NCBI GenBank assembly: GCA_903907855.1
Contig: CAIVPT010000178.1
Span: 1 to 45,537, forward strand
Reading direction: 5' to 3'
From: an uncultured Synechococcaceae cyanobacterium
GTDB lineage: Bacteria > Cyanobacteriota > Cyanobacteriia > PCC-6307 > Cyanobiaceae
DNA length: 45,537 bases
In this document: positions 17,729-20,976 of the stretch, piece by piece
How positions within the stretch are numbered: the stretch's first letter is position 1
How the letters are laid out: every line of letters begins with the position of its first letter
Translations under genes and position numbers: made by a program
Notes under the pieces: generated by a model
Database searches by the model: none
What the model was told of the DNA's origin: nothing
What the model saw: the letters and a program-made list of their open reading frames with translations, nothing else

Positions 17729-18091
17729 TCAGGCGGCCTCCGCCTCCTCGGCTTGAGCCGCGCCCGAGAGGGCACTGGGCTCCTGCTCCTGGCGCAGCAC
17801 ATTCGCCACCCGTTGCATTTCCTGGATCGCTTCAGCGCCTTCGAGGCTCACGAGCTCGTGACCATTGCGGGATTCCACCCAGTTGATGCCGCAGTCGGAC
17901 ACGCGGAAGCGGACCAGGTGATGGTCGGCGAGCTGGGCAACGAAGGCGGTGCCTTGCCGCTCGCCCGGCTCGCCGCACGTGTAGCAGCTGGCGAGGCGTC
18001 CCTGCTCCTTCAGGCATCGGGCCAGGGCCTCAAGGCTCAGCACCAGATCGTCGACCACCGAGCGGTATTGCTCGGCCAGACGGGAAAACAC
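17729..18091 (-). CDS. DUF1815 family protein
   Basis: MFSRLAEQYRSVVDDLVLSLEALARCLKEQG..CYTCGE.. pattern recalled from the cyanobacterial DUF1815 family. Confidence 0.8.
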   Translation of the reverse strand: MFSRLAEQYRSVVDDLVLSLEALARCLKEQGRLASCYTCGEPGERQGTAFVAQLADHHLVRFRVSDCGINWVESRNGHELVSLEGAEAIQEMQRVANVLRQEQEPSALSGAAQAEEAEAA

Positions 18092-18208: not shown

Positions 18209-18454
18209 TCAGCCGTCGGCCAGTTGCCACCAGCCCAGCGCCGGTCCCAGGAAGCGGACCGTGAGCCAGAACAGCACCAGGGCGCTGATGCCCACCCAGG
18301 CCCCGCGGGTGCTCAGCTGCACGAAGCGATCAGCTTGCTGGCGGCTGAACGGCAGCCAGGGAAGGATGCGCGGGGAGGTGTCCACCGGGCGACCTGCGGC
18401 CTTCTTCGCGCGGGGAGGCAGCCCCTGGTTGGCTCGGCGCTTGGCTTCTCCCAT
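18209..18454 (-). CDS. DUF2839 family small membrane protein
   Basis: MGEAKRRANQGLPPRAKK... followed by a C-terminal TM segment. Confidence 0.8.
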   Translation of the reverse strand: MGEAKRRANQGLPPRAKKAAGRPVDTSPRILPWLPFSRQQADRFVQLSTRGAWVGISALVLFWLTVRFLGPALGWWQLADG

Positions 18455-18498: not shown

Positions 18499-19962
18499 TC
18501 AGGAGGGCAGCAGGCGGGTGAGCTGCACCCATGGCTCCAACGTGGCGAACACCTGGCGGCCCCAGCTGCGACCGCGTAGTCGTCCATCGAGTACGGCCAG
18601 CCGTCCGCCGCTTCGCCGCAGGCTGGCCACGCCCCGCTCCAGCCGGTTCAGGGCGTCGGGAAGCAGCAGTTCGCGGAACCAGTCGCGACCCTGCTGGCGG
18701 AGCCGGGCCACCCGGGCCGCGGTGAGCGGATCCTCCAGGCTGGCGATCGGCAGCAGAGCCACCACCACCTGGGCGGGCACCGGCAGGCGGCCCTGGTGCT
18801 CCAGCCACCACGACCAGCGGCCGCAGATCACACCATTGCCCTCGGGGGCCATGCACTCGTGTCCCACGCGGCTGCCGAACTCCCCCGCCAGGGCGCTGGC
18901 CAGGGCCCGCCGCAGTCCGTCGTCGTCGAGGAGAACCACGCTCAGCCCCGCCTGGCCCAGCACCAGGCGGCGGCAGTGGTCGAGCAGGTGCTCCGCCAGC
19001 TGCGGGCTGGTGGGCAGGGGCTGACGCAGGGGGGCATAGAGCGGCAGCGGGTCGGCCAGCGGCGGATCGGTCAGCTCGAGTTGCACGGTGGGCGCCAGGC
19101 CCAGCCCTTGGGCGGGCAGCAACTCCCCGGCGGCTCCGGCGCCCCTGCCACGGGCCAGCTCCCCCACCAGCACCGCGCCTCGCCCCTTCAGCAAGCCCGC
19201 CAGCTCGGCCAGGGGATCCAGTGGTTGCCGCTGCAGGGTCCACTGCAGTCCGTCGGGCTCCAGGGCCGCCCAGCCGCACCATCCGTCGCCGCCGGCCGCC
19301 AGCCAGGCGGCCCAGGGGCCGGGCAGGGGTTGCAGCAGCCGCAGCAGGTGGCGCAGCGGTGCCTCGTCCTCCGGCGCCAGGGGTACGGGGCCCAGGGGCC
19401 GGCGTGGGTGGCGCAGGATCCTGCTGCTGAGCCGCTGGTGCAGGGTCAACAGGCTCTCCTCCAGCGCCGGCTGGCTGCGGATCAACGCATCCCAGTGGCT
19501 CGGGCTCACCTGGATGGCCATCGCTTCCCGCAGCTCGCTCTCCAGTCGCTCCGCCTCGGGAATGACCAGCTGCCGTTCCCCCAGCTGCTCCAGCCGCCAG
19601 GCCGTCAACAACTCCCGGTGGCTCAGCAGCCAGACGCGGGCCGACGGCGGTGCATCGGCTCCCTGCCAGCAGGGCAGCGGCAGGCCCGCCGCCTGCAGAC
19701 GCGGCCACTCCACCCGCAGCAGTCGCTGCCGCAGCGCATCGCTGACCACCAGCGCCAGGGGCTCCTCGCTGAGGGCCAGGGGCACCAGCAGGCTGATCGC
19801 CCAGCTCGGATCGGTGCCCGGAGCCAGCCGAACCACCGTGTGGTCGCCCCGCCGCAGGCTGCGGGCCACCAGGCGACTCAGGGTGAGGTGGTGCGGCCAG
19901 CGCTGCCTCCCCTCGCCCCGGAGCAGGGCCTTGAGATGGCGGTGGGCGCTGGCTTCCAACAT
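18499..19962 (-). CDS. DinG/XPD-like helicase-fold protein with degenerate catalytic motifs
   Basis: Start trimmed to MLEASAHRHLKALL; helicase-like layout with LVIPEAERLESELREAM (DEAH-like position) and a C-terminal DWFRELLLPDALNRLERGVASLRR block. Confidence 0.65.
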   Translation of the reverse strand: MLEASAHRHLKALLRGEGRQRWPHHLTLSRLVARSLRRGDHTVVRLAPGTDPSWAISLLVPLALSEEPLALVVSDALRQRLLRVEWPRLQAAGLPLPCWQGADAPPSARVWLLSHRELLTAWRLEQLGERQLVIPEAERLESELREAMAIQVSPSHWDALIRSQPALEESLLTLHQRLSSRILRHPRRPLGPVPLAPEDEAPLRHLLRLLQPLPGPWAAWLAAGGDGWCGWAALEPDGLQWTLQRQPLDPLAELAGLLKGRGAVLVGELARGRGAGAAGELLPAQGLGLAPTVQLELTDPPLADPLPLYAPLRQPLPTSPQLAEHLLDHCRRLVLGQAGLSVVLLDDDGLRRALASALAGEFGSRVGHECMAPEGNGVICGRWSWWLEHQGRLPVPAQVVVALLPIASLEDPLTAARVARLRQQGRDWFRELLLPDALNRLERGVASLRRSGGRLAVLDGRLRGRSWGRQVFATLEPWVQLTRLLPS

Positions 19963-20094: not shown

Positions 20095-20976
20095 ATGCCC
20101 CCTCTCTGGCAGTCGCGCCCCGTGGGGCTGGTGGGATTGGGGCTGATTGGCGGCTCCCTCGGCCTTGATCTGGGCCGCAGCGGTGCGTCGGTGCGGGCGC
20201 TGGTGCACCGGCCCGAGACCGCGGCCCGGGCCCGCCAGCGTTCCCTCGCTGCGGTGGTTTCCACCGACCCCTGCGTGCTGGCGGACTGCGGCCTGGTGAT
20301 CCTCTGCCTGCCCCTGGACCGCTTGCTGGAGCCGGATCCCGCCCTGCTCGCGGCCCTTCCCCCCGAGGCGATCGTCACCGATGTGGGCTCGGTGAAGGGG
20401 CCGGTGCTGGCGGCGTGGGAGCCGCGGTTGGGCGGGCGCTTCGTGGCCTCCCATCCGATGGCCGGTACCACCCGCTCTGGCGTCGAGGCAGGGGAAATCG
20501 GTTTGTTTCAGGGGCGGCCCTGGGTGATCACCCCCACCGCCGGCACCGATCCGCAGGCCCTCGAGGAGGTGGAGGCGCTGGCCCGCGCCCTTGGGGCGGT
20601 GCCACTGCGCTGCCTTGCCGCCGACCACGACCGTGCCGTGGCCCTGATCTCCCATCTGCCGGTTCTGGTGGGTGCCGCCCTCCTGCAGGCCGCCGACCAG
20701 GGTGCGCCAGGGGCCCTCGGCCCCCTGGCGCGGGCCCTGGCCTCCAGCGGCTTCGCGGACACCACTCGGGTGGGGGGAGGCAACCCGGATCTCGGCCTCT
20801 GGATGGCCCGCCATAACCGATCCGCCCTGCTGGCGGCCCTGGCGCAGTACCGCGCGGCCCTGGAGGGCCTCGAGAGCCTGGTGCGCGCCGAGGATTGGCC
20901 GGCCCTGCGGGATCAGCTGGAGGCGGCGGAGGCGTTGCGGCCGCCGTTCCTGGAACCGCTGGCCGCCCCCCTCTGA
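20095..20976 (+). CDS. tyrA: prephenate/arogenate dehydrogenase
   Basis: VGLVGLGLIGGSLGLDLGRSG Rossmann motif; VTDVGSVKGPV, ASHPMAGTTRSGVEAG. Confidence 0.9.
   Translation: MPPLWQSRPVGLVGLGLIGGSLGLDLGRSGASVRALVHRPETAARARQRSLAAVVSTDPCVLADCGLVILCLPLDRLLEPDPALLAALPPEAIVTDVGSVKGPVLAAWEPRLGGRFVASHPMAGTTRSGVEAGEIGLFQGRPWVITPTAGTDPQALEEVEALARALGAVPLRCLAADHDRAVALISHLPVLVGAALLQAADQGAPGALGPLARALASSGFADTTRVGGGNPDLGLWMARHNRSALLAALAQYRAALEGLESLVRAEDWPALRDQLEAAEALRPPFLEPLAAPL

Follow-up and report, generated by a model that had tools for sequence, protein, structure and literature searches.

Short-type DinG (sDinG) was defined in a 2025 review by Cheng (PMC11981726) as a form of DinG without ATP-binding residues and without the Fe-S domain, and was judged there to be probably not an ATPase. 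The sDinG proteins of that review came only from Nostocales, Chroococcidiopsidales and Pleurocapsales, no study of their function existed according to its author, and its AlphaFold3 prediction for the Nostoc sp. PCC 7120 protein put DNA on domain 2 only in part. Our own literature search, which included guessed S. elongatus locus tags, found no paper on sDinG function. For the active enzymes, structures of E. coli DinG (EcDinG) with ssDNA show that the P motif and F638 contact the single strand (PMC6300356), and the AZT tolerance that E. coli YoaA provides depends on the Walker A, Walker B and Fe-S residues of that protein (PMC8378479). Given this requirement, the ancestral role cannot simply persist in sDinG and its function must be changed. 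Outside the DinG family, PriA of D. radiodurans is a pseudohelicase for which binding to DNA and DnaB was shown experimentally (PMC4504706).

We analyzed a window of 45,537 nucleotides from a contig of an uncultured Synechococcaceae cyanobacterium, in which the sDinG gene and its neighbors are arranged as follows:
18499..19962, minus strand: sDinG, a predicted pseudo-helicase of 487 amino acids plus stop, based on translation, aligned relatives, the PDB profile search, AlphaFold2 and Foldseek
20095..20976, plus strand: tyrA (prephenate/arogenate dehydrogenase), the divergent neighbor
18209..18454, minus strand: DUF2839 (PF10999) protein, downstream, 44 bp past the sDinG stop
17729..18091, minus strand: DUF1815 (PF08844) protein, the gene after DUF2839 on the same strand

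Translation from 19962 to 18499 gave 487 uninterrupted residues with no internal stop, in agreement with a sequence-only reading of this DNA that had counted about 488 open codons. The peptides quoted in that reading (RLAPGTDPSWAISLLVPLAL, VIPEAERLE and DALNRLERGVASLRRSGGRLAVLDGRL) are present in this minus-strand frame. Support for a start at the ATG at 19962 comes from 78 aligned picocyanobacterial relatives of named genomes, all of which have an ATG start there; the frame remains open upstream of it only because of high GC. None of these 78 relatives has a premature stop, and their frames are open in 78/78 cases. The closest named relative, CANEWU010000126, is 96% identical, and the window comes from a Cyanobium/Synechococcaceae genome.

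Homology to DinG is detected with an alignment profile, single-protein Pfam and phmmer searches being nearly blind to it. With the single protein, Pfam returned Helicase_C_2 at only 16.4 bits, under the cut-off, and phmmer had no match in the PDB. NCBIfam models matched the C-terminal third of the single protein (YoaA, 1.4e-11; DinG, 7.8e-10), and in a cyanobacteria-wide alignment YoaA was matched by 18 of 18 divergent members (best E 4.6e-32). A profile built from sDinG only retrieved E. coli DinG from the PDB (6fwr, E 5.6e-10), covering parts of domain 1 and the whole of domain 2 in the correct order. An AlphaFold2 model based on 79 picocyanobacterial sequences (pLDDT 88.4, pTM 0.87) had DinG 6FWS as its best Foldseek match in the PDB (E 2.2e-17), and the best 37 matches were all DinG, CasDinG or XPD, several of them within TFIIH/PIC complexes. 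The DinG/XPD-type SF2 relationship is thus found in sequence and in fold and extends over both motor domains. The protein is a true DinG/XPD-type helicase homologue and the relationship is settled, which bears out the helicase fold proposed from the letters alone.

To compare motifs we tabulated 144 non-redundant sDinG homologues against 12 active DinG/YoaA proteins, namely nine from sister-class non-photosynthetic genomes, one Gloeobacter-like protein, and E. coli DinG and YoaA. The motif columns fall at these places in the window, all assigned from the motif table:
19792..19833, minus strand: degenerate Walker A (motif I) region, residues 44-57, with W54 in the lysine column
19543..19566, minus strand: degenerate motif II (DEAH column), residues 133-140, VIPEAERL
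19153..19167, minus strand: degenerate motif III (SATL column), residues 266-270, VGELA
18784..18816, minus strand: degenerate motif V (SSFWEGVDVPG column), residues 383-393
18613..18639, minus strand: degenerate motif VI, residues 442-450, ERGVASLRR, with the first Arg and its Gly lost

The Walker A lysine, present in all 12 active proteins, occurs in none of the 144 sDinG, and Trp or Tyr fills its column in 135 of them. Motif II (Walker B) reads PEAE in the window protein, and the His of DExH is kept in a single sDinG (1/144), the Gloeobacter-like one, which reads DGAH. SATL, FWEGVD and the QxxGR of motif VI are all lost; W386 alone remains of the FWEG core (144/144). The first Arg of motif VI is found in 0/144, while the invariant R449 lies at most one residue from the second Arg, the retention of which hinges on a one-residue gap. 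Where active DinG has the Fe-S region (KGR..YLC..DDC..C), the alignment shows a gap in essentially every sDinG. Correspondingly, the interval between motifs Ia and II, the seat of the Fe-S domain, spans ~43 residues compared with ~128 in active DinG, and motifs II and III are 133 residues apart compared with 181. Of the features of active DinG/YoaA, Walker A, DEAH/DEGH, the motif VI QxxGRxxR and the Fe-S cysteines, sDinG has none. Nor did a search of the rest of the protein find intact catalytic motifs, the stray GK[ST] or DExD strings of a few homologues being in unrelated places or partnerless. The sequence-only reading was therefore right that every core catalytic motif is gone, and the loss is common to all 144 homologues examined; it overlooked the absence of the Fe-S domain region and, with regard to the orthologues, the cyanobacteria-wide spread and the prior description of sDinG. 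We infer that sDinG neither hydrolyses ATP nor unwinds DNA. The two early-branching proteins L035 (Gloeobacter-like) and L036 (JA-type Synechococcus) still read WPHQL at the Q motif, a visible remnant of the ancestral enzyme.

Other residues are strongly conserved, some retained from DinG and others new to sDinG. Three segments of the window encode part of them:
18727..18753, minus strand: P-motif-like strand of domain 2, residues 404-412, LPIASLEDP, from the conservation alignment (P-motif role, PMC6300356)
18673..18684, minus strand: DWFR, residues 427-430, with F429 in the column of E. coli DinG F638
19852..19956, minus strand: N-terminal alpha1-alpha2 patch, residues 3-37, with E3, H7, W22, H24, R30, R34 and R37

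In the P-motif-like strand L404 and P412 are each conserved in 143/144 sDinG and P405 in 144/144, and D427, W428 and F429 are invariant (144/144). Domain 2 also keeps LP (434-435) and the LDxR element (D459 and R461, 143/144). Other DNA contacts are altered: F615 of the EcDinG P motif is replaced by Ile or Leu, the Fe-S-domain region that contains the EcDinG DNA contact R211 is gone, and motif Ia of domain 1 is degenerate. The seven residues of the N-terminal patch are conserved in sDinG and not in active DinG, as are G363, R365 and V366 of an FGSRV segment; the most conserved stretch of the whole protein is residues 21-40. Retention of domain 2 together with newly conserved residues is a pattern that points to a new function rather than to decay.

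Consistent with function, dN/dS in 30 close pairs is 0.04-0.15. This indicates strong purifying selection and rules out neutral decay, the outcome that the sequence-only reading had proposed to check for. sDinG was found in 40 of 40 near and far relatives examined and in 139 of 141 Cyanobacteriia genomes with completeness ≥90%, including Gloeobacter, Prochlorococcus and Cyanobium, and it is retained even in Prochlorococcus-size genomes of 1.6-1.7 Mb. The two genomes without it (G220 and G308) belong to one genus (g70, family f36). They carry Photo_RC reaction-centre genes, i.e. are photosynthetic, and have neither any PF13307 match nor DUF1815, while DUF2839 is kept. sDinG is thus dispensable at least in that genus. 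In other classes of the phylum, 9 of ~150 genomes were matched, all through intact DinG of 621-663 aa.

In a maximum-likelihood tree all sDinG form one clade (support 100/100), and homologues from large cyanobacterial genomes fall in the same clade as the window protein. The first branches are Gloeobacter-like and then JA-type Synechococcus, as in the species tree, the order expected from vertical descent. We tentatively take the genomes concerned to be Gloeobacter violaceus (G036) and JA-2-3B'a (G027). A viral source was rejected, as no relative was found among the viral contigs searched. Membership in a defence system was rejected too, since the sole match, to type IV DinG, is weak, confined to the C-terminus and reflects a common fold. 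The contig CALPNT020000014.1 (L122) carries a gene for a Cyanobium-type sDinG (72% identical) and is filed under the 'Bifidobacterium breve' MAG HRS-ES1-bin-439, a label that is therefore probably wrong.

Canonical DinG is nearly absent from the same genomes. A PF13307 search of the host genome (99.7% complete) found no PF13307 helicase of any kind, and a canonical full-length PF13307 protein was present in one sampled Cyanobacteriia genome only, the Gloeobacter-like G036 (139.5 bits). In family f22, which has many genomes of 4-8 Mb and is probably Nostocaceae, sDinG is usually the sole PF13307 match. G036 encodes an intact canonical DinG (L039, G036:C1:655937-656428) together with the sDinG that reads DGAH (L035), and the latter, judged by its motif II, seems to be an intermediate state. 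A weaker PF13307 relative of 750 aa (55 bits), distinct from sDinG, occurs in G148 (L090, G148:C179:850-1266, minus strand).

The gene neighborhood is conserved as well. The order tyrA / sDinG - DUF2839 ... recA is kept in all 72 longer picocyanobacterial loci, and DUF2839 lies directly downstream of sDinG on the same strand in 78/78 picocyanobacterial loci, mostly within ~200 bp. Among 20 distant cyanobacteria, DUF2839 directly follows sDinG in 8 and DUF1815 is next in 6. Judged from its sequence, the DUF2839 protein is short and has a single hydrophobic segment. The DUF1815 protein of the window contains a CYTCG motif; DUF1815 is conserved in Cyanobacteriia and is found beside sDinG-DUF2839 in several families. 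Both DUFs occur in Cyanobacteriia and were absent from the five sister-class genomes tested. In G137 (1.7 Mb), the one genome of the Prochlorococcus kind tested, sDinG is present and DUF1815 was not found. Strict co-dependence of DUF2839 and DUF1815 with sDinG was rejected on account of this genome and of G220 and G308; since the latter keep DUF2839 in the absence of sDinG, those two genes are not strictly dependent.

On balance, and by a modest preference, we interpret the window protein as a Cyanobium-type sDinG that acts as an ATP-independent docking scaffold gripping ssDNA (or RNA). A DinG/YoaA-like helicase would have been stripped of the ATP-binding motifs, the DEAH box, the motif VI Arg and the Fe-S domain at a time before the living Cyanobacteriia diverged, and sDinG would thereafter have been passed on vertically under strong purifying selection. 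The surface of domain 2 (the LP...P strand and DWF) would grip single-stranded DNA or RNA statically, and a partner would dock on the N-terminal patch, on the FGSRV segment or on both. SSB is one candidate for this partner; another is the protein encoded by the neighboring DUF2839 gene, through which sDinG may be anchored to a membrane. The affinity for ssDNA may be weak, because R211 and motif Ia are gone, F615 is replaced and AlphaFold3 placed DNA only in part (PMC11981726). When the SSB-Ct pocket of EcDinG predicted in PMC11981726 is mapped on sDinG, K8 becomes E, R32 becomes L and K40 becomes R (141/144); the correspondence of these residues is not one to one, and SSB binding is therefore no more than a lead.

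The main competitor to an ssDNA-gripping scaffold is one for RNA or protein, for example in RNA metabolism or in a membrane complex with DUF2839, for which the helicase fold would be a mere chassis. Most newly invariant residues (the E3–R37 patch, G363, R365 and V366) are outside the ancestral domain 2 motifs, the most regular neighbor is a small protein with a single hydrophobic stretch, and Utp25 is a pseudohelicase of the ribosomal SSU processome (PMC9539457). However, no ancestral feature is retained more completely than the equivalents of the DinG ssDNA-contacting strand and of F638, and we regard this possibility as a serious one that is clearly less probable than a grip on ssDNA. The Glu-, His- and Arg-rich character of the invariant N-terminal patch (E3, H7, H24, R30, R34) could also suggest a cryptic enzyme with another nucleotide or catalytic site in place of the ATPase site. 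We consider this improbable, since Pfam, NCBIfam and PADLOC reveal no new motif beyond weak C-terminal matches to the DinG family, and the column of the Walker A lysine is aromatic in 135/144.

A role as regulator of an active DinG paralogue within one cell, put forward in the sequence-only reading, would fit the Gloeobacter-like G036, which has both forms. The search for an active paralogue that the reading called for came out empty in the 99.7% complete host, where there is therefore no active DinG to regulate, and with canonical DinG missing from almost all Cyanobacteriia this explanation is very unlikely. The other roles that the reading offered, DNA binding and scaffolding, are plausible. 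Decay into a pseudogene has next to no probability: every catalytic motif is eroded, as it would predict, but the low dN/dS, the open frames in all 78 relatives, the near-universal retention even in the smallest genomes and the class-wide invariant residues all argue against it. Returning to the scaffold for ssDNA and SSB, we suggest, as a speculation that we would not expect to hold in full, that one event, predating the ancestor shared by the oxygenic cyanobacteria, replaced the Fe-S helicase DinG by a dead, Fe-S-free version. This version would have become a near-universal core protein with a new docking surface (N-terminus and FGSRV), serving as an ATP-independent scaffold in partnership with DUF2839 as a membrane protein; the reason may be that an Fe-S helicase sensitive to redox state is a liability in oxygen makers.

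A protein of unassigned function that nearly all cyanobacteria keep is a candidate for a task peculiar to oxygenic phototrophs. In this case, a family of helicases that protect DNA elsewhere among bacteria survives only as a dead version, long kept even in the smallest free-living photosynthetic genomes. sDinG is a clear test case for a helicase fold that works without ATP, and automatic labels such as 'ATP-dependent helicase' would be misleading for this family.

Compared with E. coli DinG and YoaA (6FWR/6FWS), sDinG shares the colinear helicase domains 1 and 2, the P-motif region and LP...DWF...LDxR, whereas the E. coli proteins have intact ATPase motifs, an Fe-S domain and ~640-716 aa rather than 487. 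The intact DinG of non-photosynthetic sister classes (L081-L089) has the same block order, GRDWFREY.LPEAI and NWVELDR.RGYFELKSAPLDV, and differs in its intact GTGSGKS, DEAHH, SATL, FWEGVD and QGFGRLIR and its length of 621-663 aa. PriA of D. radiodurans, which belongs to another family, likewise descends from a bacterial DNA helicase and became a pseudohelicase within a single lineage, where it replaces the active form. The closest described system is sDinG itself (PMC11981726), with which the window protein has in common its cyanobacterial origin, an architecture of MD1-Arch-MD2 only, a compact Arch, and the absence of the ATP-binding residues and of any FeS or pFeS domain. That review also describes an extra helix (alpha3a) that fills the ATP site between beta1 and alpha3; in our alignment, most members from outside the picocyanobacteria have a longer loop behind the first strand (for example GAPSGYHGRY), and the loop of the window protein is short. 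The range differs: here it covers almost every sampled member of the Cyanobacteriia, with Gloeobacter, Synechococcus/Cyanobium and Prochlorococcus among them. What is new is this near-universality, together with the selection, the single origin, the absence of canonical DinG and the conserved neighbors; sDinG, known since 2025, is now widened in range to a near-universal protein of the Cyanobacteriia.
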